Source: Pseudarthrobacter equi (GTDB lineage Bacteria; Actinomycetota; Actinomycetes; Actinomycetales; Micrococcaceae). Taken from it: 64,000 nt of DNA. Position numbers and translations under genes: made by a program. Under the pieces are notes generated by a model, which saw only the letters and a list, made by a program, of their open reading frames with translations, ran no database searches and had not been told where the DNA came from. The DNA is taken from assembly GCF_900105535.1 (NCBI RefSeq), contig NZ_LT629779.1, forward strand, positions 4,216,001 through 4,280,000, given 5' to 3'. How positions within the stretch are numbered: position 1 is the first letter of the stretch; every line of letters begins with the position of its first letter. This document shows positions 69 to 14,524 of this stretch, piece after piece.

Positions 69-989
69 ATGACCCTGGTGGAAACAGCCTCATCGACGGC
101 CCTCGGCGGGACCACGCTTACCGAAACGGTTGAGCAGCCGACGGATCAGAAGTTTGTCCTGACCCTGTCCTGCGGCGAGCGCGCCGGCATCGTCCAGGCC
201 GTGACAACCTTCCTGTTCGACCGCGGCTTCAACATTGACGAGCACCAGCAGTTCGATGACAGCCTCCGCGAAACGCTGCACCTGCGTACCGCGTTCTCCG
301 GTTCGCCGGCCTACACCCGGGAAACGCTCGAAGAAGAGTTCCGTCCCATCGCAGACCGGTTCGACATGAAGTTCAGCTTCAACGACCAGACCCAGCAGCG
401 CGTGCTGGTGATGGTGTCCAAGTTCGGGCACTGCCTCAACGACCTCATCTTCCGCTGGCGCGGCGGCACCCTGGGCGGTGACCTCGTTGCAGTCGTGTCC
501 AACCACGAAACCCACCGCGCGATGGCCGAGGCCGCCGGCCTGCCGTTCATCCACATTCCCGTCACCGCGGACACGAAGGCGGACGCCGAGCAGCGCCTGC
601 TGGACCTGGTGGAGGAATACGACGTGGACCTGGTGGTCCTGGCCCGCTACATGCAGGTCCTGTCCAACGATCTGTGCCGTGCCCTCGAAGGCCGCGCCAT
701 CAATATCCACCACTCCTTCCTGCCCGGCTTCAAGGGTGCAAAGCCCTACCACCAGGCCCACGCCCGCGGCGTCAAGCTCATCGGTGCCACCGCGCACTAC
801 GTCACCGCCGATCTGGACGAGGGTCCCATCATCGAACAGGAAGTCATCCGGGTTGACCACAGCTTCGGACCGGGCACCCTGTCCACCGTGGGACAGGACG
901 CCGAAGCCCTCGCCCTGTCCCGCGCCGTGCGGTGGCACTGCCAGCACCGCGTCCTGCTGGACCAGACCAGCACCGTGGTGTTCCGCTAG
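69..989 (+). CDS. purU: Formyltetrahydrofolate deformylase
   Basis: PurU hydrolyses 10-formyl-tetrahydrofolate to formate and tetrahydrofolate in the cytoplasm. The 306-residue protein has an N-terminal ACT-type regulatory domain (about 28-105) and a C-terminal formyltransferase-fold domain (about 110-290). The family's catalytic Asn, His and Asp appear as N212, H214 and D250, with the same N-to-D spacing as in glycinamide ribonucleotide formyltransferase. The start has a strong AAGGAGGAG ribosome site at 58-66. It is the first gene of an operon with dimethylglycine oxidase, fchA and folD. This context points to a catabolic role, releasing formate and recycling folate, rather than purine balance. 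The N-terminal 25 residues are a low-complexity extension before the ACT domain. Confidence 0.95.
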   Translation: MTLVETASSTALGGTTLTETVEQPTDQKFVLTLSCGERAGIVQAVTTFLFDRGFNIDEHQQFDDSLRETLHLRTAFSGSPAYTRETLEEEFRPIADRFDMKFSFNDQTQQRVLVMVSKFGHCLNDLIFRWRGGTLGGDLVAVVSNHETHRAMAEAAGLPFIHIPVTADTKADAEQRLLDLVEEYDVDLVVLARYMQVLSNDLCRALEGRAINIHHSFLPGFKGAKPYHQAHARGVKLIGATAHYVTADLDEGPIIEQEVIRVDHSFGPGTLSTVGQDAEALALSRAVRWHCQHRVLLDQTSTVVFR

Positions 990-3536
<2,547 letters not shown>

Positions 3537-3538
3537 CC

Positions 3539-4210
3539 ATGGCCGAACAGCAAGCGGACAGCGCAGGTTCCCCCGGCCCGGCGTCAATAGGCGCAGAGAC
3601 CATCAGCGGCTACCTCGCCCGGCTCGCCTCCCGGCAGCCGACCCCCGGGGGCGGCGCCGCTGCGGCCCTCCATGCTGCGCAGGGCGCCGCCCTGGTGGCC
3701 ATGGTTGCCCGGTACACCACGGGTCCCAAGTATGCGGAACACGCGGCGCTGGTGGAGCGGATCACCGGCATCGCCGACGAACTCGCCACCGAAGCCCTGC
3801 GGCTGGCGGATTCGGATGAGCAGGTCTTCCAGGCGGTCATCGATTCCTACAAGCTGCCTGCCGACACGGAGGAACTGAAGGCTGCCAAGAGCGGCGCCAT
3901 CCAGGCGGCCCTCGTCCAGGCAGCGCAGACCCCGGCTCAGCTCATCAAACTCGCCGGTTCGGTGGTGCAACTCGCCACCGAACTGGGCGAGGTGGCAAAC
4001 CCGAACGTCATCAGCGACGTCGCAGCAGCGGCGGATGCCGCCCGGGCCGCCGCAACCACCGCCAGGGTGAACATCGACATCAACCTCGTGGCCATCAAGG
4101 ACCCGTCCGTCAGGTCGCTGCTGGCCGACCAGACGGACGGCCTCGCAGACAAGGTTGTTGCGGCAGCGGACAGCCTCGCGGCCCGGGTACGGGAAAGGAT
4201 CCTTCGATGA
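3539..4210 (+). CDS. fchA: FchA-type methenyl-THF cyclohydrolase / cyclodeaminase family protein
   Basis: The 223-residue protein belongs to the formiminotetrahydrofolate cyclodeaminase family (FTCD_C fold). The family signature region PTPGGGAAAA lies near residues 32-41, and the rest is a helical bundle. In Methylorubrum extorquens the FchA member of this family is a methenyl-tetrahydrofolate cyclohydrolase. That role fits here better than histidine degradation, because no hut catabolic genes adjoin it and its neighbours are dimethylglycine oxidase and folD. The start is 2 nt after the dmg stop, and its end overlaps folD by ATGA, so translation is probably coupled. The adjacent FolD lacks the usual catalytic lysine, which would make a separate cyclohydrolase useful. 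Family assignment is firm; the exact reaction is inferred. Confidence 0.85.
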   Translation: MAEQQADSAGSPGPASIGAETISGYLARLASRQPTPGGGAAAALHAAQGAALVAMVARYTTGPKYAEHAALVERITGIADELATEALRLADSDEQVFQAVIDSYKLPADTEELKAAKSGAIQAALVQAAQTPAQLIKLAGSVVQLATELGEVANPNVISDVAAAADAARAAATTARVNIDINLVAIKDPSVRSLLADQTDGLADKVVAAADSLAARVRERILR

Positions 4211-5088
4211 GCACCTCGACTACCACAACACTGTCCGGAAAAGCGCTGGCCGGAGTCATCCGGCAGCGCGCCCAGGACGAAGCCCGGGCACTCGAGCGGG
4301 ACGGTGGGCATCCGTCCCTGGCCGTGGTCATCGCCACCGACGACGAGTCAACGCACTGGTACGTCCGCTCCATCGAACGGGCGGCTGAAGCTGCGGGCAT
4401 CGGCTGCCGCATCATCGACCTCGGGCACGATGCCACCGAGCAGGTGCTGGCCAACGTCCTGCGGGACCTCAGCGCGGAGCCCTCGGTCCACGGCATCATC
4501 CTGCAGACGCCACTGCCGGCAGGAGTCCGGAGCGATGCCCTGGTGGGCCTGATCGCGCCGGAAAAGGACATTGACGGCGCCAACCCGCTTAGCCTCGGCA
4601 GGCTTGCCGTGGGGCAGCCGGCCTTTGCACCGGCAACCGCCCGCGCCGTGGTGGAAATCCTCGACCACTACGACGTCCCCGTTGCAGGCCGCAGCGTGGC
4701 CGTGGTGGGCCGGTCCGCCGTCGTGGGCAAACCCCTGGCGCTGCTGCTGCTGGAACGCGACGCGGCCATCACCGTGTGCCACTCCCGTTCCGGCCCGCTG
4801 GAACGGCACACCAGGCAGGCGGACATTGTGGTGGTGGCCGCCGGAAGGACAGGGCTGGTGAACGGCAGCCACATCTCGCCGGACACCGTGGTGGTGGACG
4901 TTGGCACCAACGTCCTCCCAGACGGCTCCTTGGTGGGCGATGTGGACGGGGCAAGCGTGACCGGCATCGCCGCCGCACTGACCCCGGTCCCCGGCGGCGT
5001 CGGCTCGGTGACCACCGCGCTGTTGCTGCTGCACACGGTGGAGGCTGCCCGGCAGCAGTCGCCGGTCCAGCTCCTGGAAAACGCCTAG
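4207..5088 (+). CDS. folD: FolD-family methylene-THF dehydrogenase (catalytic Lys replaced)
   Basis: The 293-residue protein has the FolD layout: an N-terminal substrate domain, the NADP-binding motif VVGRSAVVGKP (about 165-175), and the C-terminal signature PVPGGVGSVTT. FolD normally oxidises 5,10-methylene-THF and hydrolyses methenyl-THF to 10-formyl-THF. The usual YxxxK element reads Y52-VRS-I56, so isoleucine stands where the cyclohydrolase lysine (human MTHFD1 K56) belongs. The motif KDVDGFHP is also altered, to KDIDGANP. The Gln and Asp of the active site (in LQTPLP and KDID) are kept. I infer that dehydrogenase activity remains and cyclohydrolase activity is reduced or lost, with FchA supplying that step. 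It overlaps fchA by ATGA and is the last gene of the operon. Confidence 0.88.
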   Translation: MSTSTTTTLSGKALAGVIRQRAQDEARALERDGGHPSLAVVIATDDESTHWYVRSIERAAEAAGIGCRIIDLGHDATEQVLANVLRDLSAEPSVHGIILQTPLPAGVRSDALVGLIAPEKDIDGANPLSLGRLAVGQPAFAPATARAVVEILDHYDVPVAGRSVAVVGRSAVVGKPLALLLLERDAAITVCHSRSGPLERHTRQADIVVVAAGRTGLVNGSHISPDTVVVDVGTNVLPDGSLVGDVDGASVTGIAAALTPVPGGVGSVTTALLLLHTVEAARQQSPVQLLENA

Positions 5089-5285: not shown

Positions 5286-6602
5286 ATGATGACGTTTACG
5301 CCCATCGCAGATCCCACGTCCCCAATGGCGGGGACCGGACTGCACTCGATCGATTGGCCGGAAGCCAGGCGCCTTGCCTACGACTGCGCAGGACCCCTCC
5401 CCTCCGTTCAGGTTCCGCTCCATCAAGCGGCCGGACGAACCCTCTCCAGCGCAGTGACCGCGTTGCAGGACCTGCCCCACTACGCCTCTTCGGCAATGGA
5501 CGGCTGGGCACTGAACGGGGATGGACCCTGGCTCCTGGCCGGCGGGCAGCATCCACTGGCGCCGGGAACGGCCGCAGTCATCGCCACCGGCGGCCTGGTT
5601 CCGGACGGCGCAACAGCGGTGCTCCGCAAGGAAAGCGGCCTGGTGGCTAAGGACGAAACGGGGCGTCCCGCCCTTACCGTCCGCGCCGACGCGAAGCCGG
5701 GCGAACCCCGGCCGGGCCAGCACGTGCGCCCCGCAGGGACCGAGGCATTGGCCGGCGAAACGCTGATCCCCGCGGGCACAGTCCTCAACCCCGCCCACCT
5801 GGCCCTTGCCGCCGTGGCCGGCCATGACCAGGTGGAGGTGCAGTCACAACCGGTGGTTTCCGTCGTCCTGACCGGCTCCGAGGTAGTGACGTCAGGCATT
5901 CCTGCCCCCGGAAACGTCCGGGACACCTTCGGACCGCAGCTGGGCACCGTCATTTCCCAGCTGGGCGGCATACCGGGCACTTTCATCCGCATTGGTGACT
6001 CCTTCGATGCTTGGCTGGAGGCGCTGGAAGGCTCCGGTGCCGGTTCGAAGTCGCGGTCCGACGTCGTCATCACCACCGGGGGGACCGGCAAGTCCGGCAC
6101 CGACCACTTCCGGGACGCGGTGGCCGCGCTGGGCGGACGCCTGCTGCTGGACGGCGTCGCCATGCGCCCCGGACACCCTGCCGTCCTGGCCGAACTGCCC
6201 GACGGGCGCTTCGCCGTCGGACTTCCCGGAAATCCCCTGGCCGCCATGATGGCGCTGGCCACCATCGGCGCCCCCTTGCTGGCCGCGCTGGGGAACCAGC
6301 CCCTGCCGCAGGTCCGGCACGCCGCCTCCGGCAATGACTTCGGCCCCGACGGCGGCTGCAGCGACGGGAAGGGGCGGACGCGGCTCATCCCGTGCCGGTT
6401 CCTGTCCGGGCTGGCCTTTCCCGTGGACCACACCGGACCGGGCATGATGCGCGGCCTGGCGTGGGCGGAGGGCGTCATGGTGGTGCCGCCCGGCGGCGTC
6501 GACTCCGGGGAACCGGTGGCGATACTGCCTCTTCCCTGGACCCCTGCAGCCGCCACCCCGATGGGCGCGAACGCTGGAAGGAGCACGCTTTGGCACGCAT
6601 GA
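5286..6602 (+). CDS. moeA: Molybdopterin molybdenumtransferase
   Basis: MoeA inserts molybdate into adenylylated molybdopterin, a late step of molybdenum cofactor synthesis. The 438-residue protein has the MoeA N-terminal region with the signature SAMDGWAL (about 65-72), and the MoCF/MogA-like domain with TTGGTGKSG and the GNPLA segment typical of the family. The start has AAGGGG just upstream at 5275-5280; a second ATG at 5289 is also possible. The end overlaps fdhD. Being paired with fdhD beside a formate-dehydrogenase-type gene suggests it serves that molybdoenzyme. It is preceded by a long hairpin leader that may control its expression. Confidence 0.95.
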   Translation: MMTFTPIADPTSPMAGTGLHSIDWPEARRLAYDCAGPLPSVQVPLHQAAGRTLSSAVTALQDLPHYASSAMDGWALNGDGPWLLAGGQHPLAPGTAAVIATGGLVPDGATAVLRKESGLVAKDETGRPALTVRADAKPGEPRPGQHVRPAGTEALAGETLIPAGTVLNPAHLALAAVAGHDQVEVQSQPVVSVVLTGSEVVTSGIPAPGNVRDTFGPQLGTVISQLGGIPGTFIRIGDSFDAWLEALEGSGAGSKSRSDVVITTGGTGKSGTDHFRDAVAALGGRLLLDGVAMRPGHPAVLAELPDGRFAVGLPGNPLAAMMALATIGAPLLAALGNQPLPQVRHAASGNDFGPDGGCSDGKGRTRLIPCRFLSGLAFPVDHTGPGMMRGLAWAEGVMVVPPGGVDSGEPVAILPLPWTPAAATPMGANAGRSTLWHA

Positions 6603-7483
6603 CGCAGCGCCGCAAGATCCACCGCTTCCAGCTGGACGGCTCGGGCACGGAATATCCGGTCCGGTTCAAGGAGGATGTGATCGCCGCGGAAGAGCCCTTG
6701 GAGATCCGGCTGGGCGGCCGTTCGTTCGCCGTCACCATGAGGACGCCGGGCGACGACTTCGACCTCGTGGCCGGGTTCCTCGTCTCCGAAGGTGTAATCC
6801 GGGACGGGTCCGAGCTGGTGTCCCTGCGCTTCTGCGCCGGCGGTCCCGACGAAGTGCAGAACTTCAACGTGGTGGACGCCCAGCTGCGTCCGGACGTGCC
6901 CCTGCCCGAAACGATGCGGCATGTCTACACCTCCAGCTCGTGCGGCATCTGCGGAACGGAGTCCATCGAGGCAGTGCGGAAGACCCTGCACTACGATCCC
7001 TCGGCGGACCCGCTGAAGGTCCCGGTTGACGCACTCGCCGCCCTCCCGGACAAGCTCCGGGAAGCCCAGGCCGTATTCGACAAGACCGGCGGTGTCCACG
7101 CTGCCGGCCTCTTCCGGGTGGGGGGTGGCGAGCCCGAGCTGCTGTGCCTGCGCGAGGACGTGGGCCGGCACAATGCCGTGGACAAGGTGGTGGGGTGGGC
7201 CCTCCGGCAAGGCCTGCTGCCCCTGCGCGGCACGGTGCTGCAGGTGTCCGGCCGGGCGTCGTTTGAACTCGTCCAGAAGGCCGCACTTGCCGGCATTCCA
7301 GTGCTCTCCGCGGTGAGCGCCCCGTCAAGCCTGGCCATCGACCTGGCGGTTGAAACCGGCCTCACGCTGGCGGGATTCAGCAGGGGCCACAGCCTGAACG
7401 TCTACGCGGGCCGGGACCGGTTGGACCCGCCACGTGCCGTAACAGAAGACCTTCTCCAGGCAGGCGCCGGCCAGAACAACTAA
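6590..7483 (+). CDS. fdhD: Formate dehydrogenase accessory sulfurtransferase
   Basis: FdhD passes sulfur from a cysteine desulfurase to the molybdenum cofactor of formate dehydrogenases, a step needed for their activity. The 297-residue protein carries the redox motif C118-G-I-C121 (E. coli C121/C124) and conserved REDVGRHNAVDKV and GRASFELVQK segments. I chose the TTG at 6590 because GGAAGGAG ends 6 nt before it and the resulting MARMTQRRKIHRF matches the usual actinobacterial N-terminus. An ATG at 6599 is the alternative. The gene overlaps the end of moeA, so the two are probably co-translated. It supports the view that the molybdoenzyme at 12173-14524 is a formate dehydrogenase. Confidence 0.94.
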   Translation: MARMTQRRKIHRFQLDGSGTEYPVRFKEDVIAAEEPLEIRLGGRSFAVTMRTPGDDFDLVAGFLVSEGVIRDGSELVSLRFCAGGPDEVQNFNVVDAQLRPDVPLPETMRHVYTSSSCGICGTESIEAVRKTLHYDPSADPLKVPVDALAALPDKLREAQAVFDKTGGVHAAGLFRVGGGEPELLCLREDVGRHNAVDKVVGWALRQGLLPLRGTVLQVSGRASFELVQKAALAGIPVLSAVSAPSSLAIDLAVETGLTLAGFSRGHSLNVYAGRDRLDPPRAVTEDLLQAGAGQNN

Positions 7484-7849: not shown

Positions 7850-9256
7850 ATGACAATCCAAGGTGGCAGCACCATCGATCAAAGCAGAGCAGAAAGTACC
7901 AGCTCCACGTTCAAACGCCGCTTCATGATTCGGCTTGTCGCTGTCTTCATCGGCGGGATGTTCCTCGACGGTTACATCCTCGGAATCATCGGTCCCGTCA
8001 CGGGACTGATGCGGTCAGACCTCCAGCTCGACGCACTGTCGCTGGGCATGATCGCCGCCGGCCCGCTGGTGGGTATCTTCGTCGGTTCCCCGTTGGCCGG
8101 CTGGGCTGCCGACAAGTTCGGACGCAAACCGATGTTCCTCGTGGACATGGGCCTGTTCCTGGCCGCCTCAGCAGCGCAGTTCTTTGTAACCTCCGGCGAC
8201 GGCGCCGTGATCCAGCTGGCCATCATCCGGTTCTTCATGGGCGTCGCGATCGGCGGCGAATACTCAATCGGCGGACCCCTGCTGTCAGAGTTCTCCCCTC
8301 CAAAGCTCCGCGGGCGGCTGCTCGGACTGACCCTGGTGGCCTGGTACGTCGGCTTCATGATGGCGTTCATCATCGGCACGCTCCTGCACGACGCCGGCGC
8401 ACCATGGCGCCTCGTCCTCGGCTCGAGCACGATCATCGCAGCCGTCCTGTTCGTCGCCCGCATCGGCCTCCCCGAATCGCCGAGCTGGCTCATCACGAAG
8501 GGACGGCGGGAAGAGGCACTGGCGATCGCGCACCGGTACGTCGAATCGCCCCAGATGCACGACAGCATCACCGAAGAGATCGACCTCAGGATGATTCAGG
8601 AGGCCCAGGCCGCGAAGAGCAGGAGCAAAATCAAGACCGCCTCCGTGGGGATGCTGTTCTCGAAGCAGTACTGGCGCACCACCCTCTTCACCTCAGGTTT
8701 CTGGTTCTGCGCTGTCACCCCGTACTTCGCAATCGCCACCTTTGCCGACGAAGTGCTCAACCAATTCGGTTTCGGCGGCGGCTGGGCCGGTGGAGTGGGC
8801 CTGTCCGCCCTTGCAACCGCAGGTGTTGTCACCTCAGTGCTCCTGATTGACCGGCTCGGCCGCCGGATCCTTACCGTGCCCGGGCAGTGGCTGTGCGCAG
8901 GCATCCTGCTGGTCATCGGCGTCTGGGCAGACGCACCAGCGATCCTGATACTCGTCCTGTTCTTCGCGTTCTCCTTCTTCAATGCCGGCTACACCACGAT
9001 GACCCAGGTCTATCCGTCCGAGGTATTCCCCGGCCACCTGCGCGGCATCGGAACGGGCTTCGCGGCCGCCTTCAGCCGCATCGGCGCCGCACTCGGCACC
9101 TTTGCCCTGCCGTGGGCGATCAGCAACATCGGCATGGGCCCGAGCATGGTGGTAGCCGCCGCCGTCGCACTGCTCGGCGCAGCGCTCTCGCAATGGCTCG
9201 CGCCAGAGACGAAGGGGCGCACCCTCGCCGAGATCTCGGCAGACTTCTCCCACTGA
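7850..9256 (+). CDS. MFS transporter, sugar-porter/metabolite:H+ type
   Basis: A 468-residue inner-membrane protein with about 12 predicted transmembrane segments. It carries the family motif GWAADKFGRKP between helices 2 and 3 (about 83-93), a second RLGRR loop motif near the middle, and PESPSWL after helix 6, typical of the sugar (and other) transporter family. The start ATG 7850 is preceded by GAAGGA. The substrate is not evident from sequence. Lying between moeA-fdhD and a dimethylglycine oxidase paralogue, and sharing a promoter block with the latter, it may import a methylated glycine such as dimethylglycine or sarcosine. That is inference from context. A terminator follows. Confidence 0.85.
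   Translation: MTIQGGSTIDQSRAESTSSTFKRRFMIRLVAVFIGGMFLDGYILGIIGPVTGLMRSDLQLDALSLGMIAAGPLVGIFVGSPLAGWAADKFGRKPMFLVDMGLFLAASAAQFFVTSGDGAVIQLAIIRFFMGVAIGGEYSIGGPLLSEFSPPKLRGRLLGLTLVAWYVGFMMAFIIGTLLHDAGAPWRLVLGSSTIIAAVLFVARIGLPESPSWLITKGRREEALAIAHRYVESPQMHDSITEEIDLRMIQEAQAAKSRSKIKTASVGMLFSKQYWRTTLFTSGFWFCAVTPYFAIATFADEVLNQFGFGGGWAGGVGLSALATAGVVTSVLLIDRLGRRILTVPGQWLCAGILLVIGVWADAPAILILVLFFAFSFFNAGYTTMTQVYPSEVFPGHLRGIGTGFAAAFSRIGAALGTFALPWAISNIGMGPSMVVAAAVALLGAALSQWLAPETKGRTLAEISADFSH

Positions 9257-9474: not shown

Positions 9475-12009
<2,535 letters not shown>

Positions 12010-12172: not shown

Positions 12173-14524
<2,352 letters not shown>

Follow-up and report, generated by a model that had tools for sequence, protein, structure and literature searches.

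Why is a FolD that lacks its catalytic lysine encoded directly behind an FchA-type gene, when a single FolD normally does the work of both proteins? This question is raised by one gene run in the window, i.e., the whole 64,000-nucleotide stretch of Pseudarthrobacter equi DNA analysed here. The answer, which gene content and active-site residues make quite probable, is that FolD and FchA would divide between them a step normally done by FolD alone, being fed by the dimethylglycine oxidase (DMGO) and drained by the 10-formyl-tetrahydrofolate (10-formyl-THF) deformylase PurU encoded beside them.

The gene run and its two folate proteins

The purU, DMGO-type, fchA and folD genes (Table 1) form a single run on the + strand (window 69–5088), and thus an operon that contains both DMGO and PurU. 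Dimethylglycine is presumably the substrate of DMGO, judging by its domain make-up and by what is known of the family. The preliminary description had noted an ATGA-coupled neighbour of the cyclodeaminase family, and this is indeed what the gene is: the protein matches FTCD_C with 175 bits, and the fchA TGA (4208–4210) overlaps the folD ATG (4207–4209) by 4 bases. The fchA ATG in turn lies two bases downstream of the DMGO stop at 3536, and its translation may rely on coupling to DMGO. By eye, a clear ribosome-binding site for fchA was not found in window 3519–3541. In addition, a second DMGO-type protein (window 9502–12009, + strand), 66.5% identical to the first, is encoded 4.4 kb past folD next to a transporter gene, and a second DMGO copy is similarly placed in the relative locus L037.

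Table 1. Features of the Pseudarthrobacter equi window and the evidence for their assignment
Feature	Window position	Strand	Evidence
purU, 10-formyl-THF deformylase (10-formyl-THF to formate + THF)	69..989	+	NCBIfam TIGR00655 PurU 318 bits, cut-off 285.95
DMGO-type dimethylglycine oxidase, proposed 5,10-methylene-THF source	1020..3536	+	Pfam DAO, FAO_M, GCV_T, GCV_T_C
fchA-type gene, FTCD_C family, proposed methenyl-THF cyclohydrolase	3539..4210	+	FTCD_C 175 bits
Lys-less folD, proposed monofunctional methylene-THF dehydrogenase	4207..5088	+	both Pfam THF_DHG_CYH domains
FolD codon 56, ATC = Ile, at catalytic Lys position	4372..4374	+	sequence; gapless motif alignment
ATGA overlap, fchA stop / folD start	4207..4210	+	sequence
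moeA-like molybdenum cofactor gene, possible formate dehydrogenase support (link inferred)	5286..6602	+	Pfam MoeA_N, MoCF_biosynth, MoeA_C
fdhD, formate dehydrogenase accessory protein; start position provisional	6569..7483	+	Pfam FdhD-NarQ 230 bits
molybdopterin oxidoreductase, candidate formate dehydrogenase	12173..14524	-	Pfam Molybdopterin, Molydop_binding

Regarding FolD, residue 56 had been read as Ile instead of Lys, which holds: the protein reads HWY52VRSI56ERA, and at the motif the alignment with YVxxK relatives is gapless. Both Pfam domains, the PGGVG loop (P262–G266), Tyr52, Gln100, Asp123 (equivalent to Asp125) and the KDxDG aspartates are present and the predicted fold is intact, so the protein belongs to FolD. 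The catalytic Lys of the YxxxK motif, which marks the bifunctional enzymes, is absent, and since Ile56 replaces it, the window FolD should probably not be filed as bifunctional. Two more differences are Thr in place of Ser49 and SV in place of PM at 267–268. The change from KDVDGFHP to KDIDGANP, also reported earlier, is correct as sequence but was rejected as a sign of lost activity: it is weak evidence because position 126 varies among Lys-type FolDs as well (H in 34, T in 8 and S in 5 of 51), with the K-D-x-D core retained. The Ser49 and PM changes appear more telling. In the cofactor site, Ser193 aligns with Ser197 of human MTHFD1. According to the available text of a study of MTHFD2, Ser197 is tied to NADP+ preference (PMC9173628). 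The second FolD of the same genome (C1:1620852-1621724) reads YVSMK, i.e., it has Lys, and is 33% identical to the window FolD.

As for FchA, the FTCD_C domain covers residues 21–198 of 223, which makes it a stand-alone domain protein, and among solved structures the closest to it in sequence is methenyltetrahydrofolate cyclohydrolase 7vg4 (E 8.8e-27). The score against the NCBIfam FchA equivalog NF045657, 142.6 bits, is under the cut-off of 275; the proposed function is thus FchA-like, yet the protein falls outside the curated equivalog. The genome carries a second FTCD_C paralogue (C1:537479-537958; L222 2857-3594, - strand), which has SPGGG instead of TPGGG. It was rejected as a FolD partner, no FolD being present in the surrounding 6.5 kb.

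Residue 56 and FTCD_C in relatives and across the phylum

Within the family, a FolD match was found in 148 of 149 genomes, and 20 of them, the present one included, have a copy of the window FolD (49–100% identical) together with at least one additional FolD match each. Residues were read for 30 of these matches. All 20 close copies have Ile (18) or Leu (2) at position 56 and an adjacent FTCD_C gene, and the 10 others all have Lys, with FTCD_C within 1.5 kb in none. Since Ile or Leu is kept in every close copy, the change at residue 56 is not a chance substitution.

A separate scan of contigs (genome_contigs) returned 334 relatives, the best 80 of which all have Ile56, with FchA adjacent in 79. 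Lys-type FolDs are not expected in this set, since the search patterns were derived from Lys-less FolDs, and it overlaps with the family set, as 7 of the 20 family loci match its loci over the FolD core. Among the same best 80, DMGO directly precedes FchA in a DMGO-FchA-FolD series in 67 loci, DMGO is found somewhere in 68, PurU in 73, and a homologue of the molybdopterin oxidoreductase (at least 45% identity over at least 250 residues) in 49, all counted within flanks of at most 8 kb that contig ends cut in some cases. One of these loci (L112) belongs to Arthrobacter globiformis NBRC 12137. The sole exception to FchA adjacency, L117, has what appears to be an FchA remnant (7881-7961, a match of 27 residues), followed by an intact Lys-less FolD, and its strain carries a second, intact FchA-FolD pair at L094. 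Ile56 with adjacent FTCD_C also occurs in Embleya and Nonomuraea records of the plasmid collection.

Two side observations concern other FolDs. A PurU-FolD pair without FchA (L052 8155-9913, relative G007) has a FolD that retains Lys and is a naturally occurring contrast to that of the window. A 453-residue FolD-like protein (P0002) contains a partial internal FolD repeat, for which an assembly error is possible.

Lys loss had been expected to co-occur with fchA. Several overlapping samples bear this out for single loci and, more clearly, for whole genomes, but not absolutely. In a survey centred on FTCD_C, 133 of 396 phylum genomes have the domain, and 140 of the 147 places listed were read (110 in a first set, 27 in a second, and 3 others: the present locus L003, G009 L012, and G256 L332). 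A same-strand FolD neighbour is found at 71 of the 140 places, and all 71 FolDs are without Lys, having Val, Ala, Ile or Leu (65 from the first set, 3 from the second, i.e., G188, G368, and G173, and the 3 others). At the remaining 69 places no FolD lies in the sequence stretch covered, some stretches ending at a contig end.

The survey centred on FolD comprises 110 phylum genomes, 103 of them with FolD, and 121 places, all of which were read. None of the 88 Lys-type places has an FTCD_C neighbour within about 1.5 kb on each side; of the 33 Lys-less places, 25 have FTCD_C adjacent and 8 do not. At the genome level, FTCD_C is present in 11 of the 71 genomes (of 103) with Lys-type FolD only, in 11 of the 12 with both types, and in all 20 with Lys-less FolD only (linked in 19, unlinked in G197). 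The exception among the 12, G196, has a Lys-less FolD and no FTCD_C match anywhere in the genome, but a Lys-type FolD is present.

For the class, 197 genomes were surveyed, and the 36 best-ranking hits to the alignment of Lys-less FolDs were read along with 20 second copies. One of the 36 (G009) was already counted; the remaining 35, the window gene included, are all Lys-less. FTCD_C adjoins 24 of them and occurs elsewhere in the genome for 2 (G197 and G382), and the genomes of the other 9 gave no FTCD_C match, so the Lys-less subfamily can persist without FchA. All 9 of these genomes, however, also have a Lys-type FolD, and the 20 second copies, from 19 class genomes, are without exception Lys-type. 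Altogether, a Lys-less FolD without FTCD_C was seen in 10 genomes, each of which has a Lys-type FolD. By contrast, five genomes from the family to which these 9 belong (G557, G589, G603, G655, and G679) have FTCD_C and a single FolD, which is Lys-less (for G603 the count is two matches to the Lys-less alignment and one to the FolD family). This swap within one family is the best evidence, at the level of gene content, that a Lys-less FolD would need FchA or a second FolD. In three of the 9 FTCD_C-less genomes the Lys-less copy (L369, L370, and L384) has lost Tyr52 as well (to Phe, Phe, and Ser, respectively), possibly reflecting a shift in function, or degeneration while a Lys-type FolD is present. 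Some Lys-less FolDs are thus unlinked to FchA or located in FchA-less genomes, i.e., co-occurrence is not absolute.

Outside the phylum, the search for both genes covered a single Clostridia record, of 2.6 Mb, from Acetoanaerobium noterae (Bacillota), which has Ala56 in its sole FolD and two FTCD_C genes elsewhere. Around two Lys-type FolDs of Clostridia (L340 and L341), the sequence covered contains no FTCD_C.

Other positions change together with residue 56. Based on 51 Lys-type and 40 Lys-less FolDs (70% redundancy), Ser49 is present in 50 and 4, Gln100 in 51 and 12, and Met268 in 45 and 0 sequences, respectively. Tyr52 is found in 50 of the Lys-type and in all 40 Lys-less FolDs; Asp123 in all 51 and in 33, the other 7 having Glu. 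In a tree of 91 rows, built with a quick method after removing the columns of residues 50–62 and 96–106, only 2 changes between the Lys and non-Lys states are needed, and an independent-pairs test has at most 2 pairs. The origin of the Lys-less FolD is therefore old and the locus counts above are not independent. For the same reason, a scenario of many independent Lys losses, each with a gain of FchA, was rejected, and the association of Lys loss and FchA is, judging by the tree, inherited linkage plus later swaps. Fisher p-values calculated for it, from counts preceding the final ones, therefore serve as description only. The earlier suggestion that a bifunctional FolD was split in this organism likewise fails, since the Lys-less subfamily is old and an intact housekeeping Lys-type FolD is kept.

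The proposed route and its alternatives

From the observed residue change, gene order and its conservation, genome-level complementarity and predicted fold, we infer all activities, the direction and the cofactor of the following route. The adjacent dimethylglycine oxidase would supply 5,10-methylene-THF, and FolD, without Lys56 but with the folate-binding Tyr52, Asp123 and the cofactor site kept, would oxidise it to 5,10-methenyl-THF, probably with NADP+. Hydrolysis by FchA would give 10-formyl-THF, from which PurU would release formate and free THF, and the nearby candidate molybdenum formate dehydrogenase could complete the oxidation to CO2. The route would represent a catabolic branch running alongside the housekeeping bifunctional FolD. 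That PurU and the pair lead from methylene-THF to formate was already suggested in the preliminary description, and the DMGO and PurU neighbours, as well as the DMGO-FchA-FolD series in 67 of the 80 loci, support it.

The role of the lost residue bears directly on whether FolD could still be bifunctional, with FchA just adding cyclohydrolase capacity at times when dimethylglycine overloads the folate pool. In the available text on human MTHFD1, Lys56 is ascribed a part in both activities, together with Gln100 (PMC3368264), and modelling of MTHFD2 suggests that Lys56 mainly serves binding for the dehydrogenase, although a catalytic cyclohydrolase role is described there as not excludable (PMC9173628, available text). 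In the Bombyx mori homologue, however, the Lys53Ala enzyme (Lys53 being the Lys56 position) reportedly retained both activities, with a cyclohydrolase kcat/Km of 0.097 vs 0.13 for the wild type (PMC6443876, available text). Lys loss alone thus need not abolish the cyclohydrolase, and the sequence supports a dehydrogenase-only FolD without proving it. Besides this near wild-type mutant, the window FolD's own Gln100 and Tyr52 speak for retained bifunctionality. Such a reading, however, leaves unexplained why Lys is absent from all 71 FTCD_C-adjacent FolDs, why Ser49 and the PM motif change along with it, and why FTCD_C is present in all 20 Lys-less-only genomes, and the role in both activities ascribed to human Lys56 also opposes it. 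We consider it unlikely.

Reversal of the pair, i.e., reduction of 10-formyl-THF to methylene-THF for formate assimilation as in acetogens, where FolD and FchA run in the reductive direction, seems very unlikely. Reductive flux is possible in principle because a gene for the formate-THF ligase Fhs exists elsewhere in the genome (C1:3340110), but it lies about 0.88 Mb from the operon. The pair is instead flanked by PurU and DMGO, both present in 67 of the best 80 of 334 relatives' loci, and PurU is described as irreversible in the available text of PMC5023230. Finally, that FchA is a formimino-THF cyclodeaminase only incidentally beside FolD, as the Pfam family name and the score under the FchA equivalog cut-off might suggest, is hardly credible: no match to the formiminotransferase domain FTCD_N (PF07837) was found in the genome, with Thermotoga maritima positive as a control, which weakens a formimino-THF role, while the PDB entry closest in sequence is a methenyl-THF cyclohydrolase and linkage to FolD is kept in 79 of the best 80 of 334 relatives.

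Known systems and implications

In Methylorubrum extorquens, dehydrogenase and cyclohydrolase reside on separate proteins, MtdA and FchA, the latter of the same family as the window FchA. MtdA, however, is a different, only distantly related dehydrogenase, whereas the FchA partner in the window has the FolD fold. Yeast Mtd1 (PDB 1edz) is 21% identical to the window FolD over aligned residues and NAD-dependent according to the entry title; the window FolD, by contrast, retains the Ser of the NADP type. Closer to the present case, FolD and FchA of Clostridium perfringens were reportedly treated by Aluri et al. in 2016. FchA of this species and of acetate oxidisers belongs to the FTCD_C family. 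As far as the available accounts go, both systems likewise combine a FolD-family dehydrogenase with a separate methenyl-THF cyclohydrolase FchA, and for a syntrophic acetate oxidiser the available text names the FolD and FchA genes within the Wood-Ljungdahl pathway (PMC3584212). In contrast to that setting, the pair described here is coupled to DMGO and PurU, in a soil member of the Actinomycetota with a separate housekeeping FolD. Its reading as a variant of the known FolD/FchA split appears well supported.

A second FolD cluster of Arthrobacter sp. 31Y, called unique in 2015, is apparently of the same type as that in the window, judging by its description (PMC5023230); the available text of that account mentions neither the changed Lys nor a broad distribution nor a rule at the genome level. 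Similarly, the accessible part of the paper on the Rue61a genome locates a DMGO homologue and refers to the Arthrobacter globiformis dimethylglycine oxidase structure 1PJ7, but names no FolD pairing (PMC3534580). Within the open-access literature, with subscription papers outside the scope, no statement on Lys loss in FchA-linked FolDs was found. The present analysis contributes the Lys loss, its phylum-wide lock-step with FchA, the complementarity across whole genomes, and the connection to dimethylglycine oxidase.

Several Lys-less FolDs are labelled bifunctional in public annotation. In Collinsella aerofaciens (L342 2366-3855) a Lys-less FolD is annotated in this way though a cyclodeaminase/cyclohydrolase gene adjoins it. 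A broader reading, which may equally well hold or fail, is that Lys-less FolDs (Ile, Leu, Val or Ala at 56, with Ser49 and PM changed) are ancient, phylum-wide obligate dehydrogenases, dependent on FchA or a second FolD and misannotated as bifunctional, that residue 56 predicts the need for FchA from a single genome, and that the pair in Arthrobacter relatives was recruited to isolate the one-carbon flux from dimethylglycine from biosynthetic 10-formyl-THF. These enzymes also provide a natural means of testing whether dehydrogenation requires the FolD Lys or whether hydrolysis alone does. If the proposed split is right, one residue and one neighbour gene would separate dehydrogenase-only from bifunctional FolDs, a distinction that would matter to all metabolic models in which FolD is taken to supply 10-formyl-THF, and the set of genes leading from dimethylglycine to formate would be complete for Arthrobacter globiformis.
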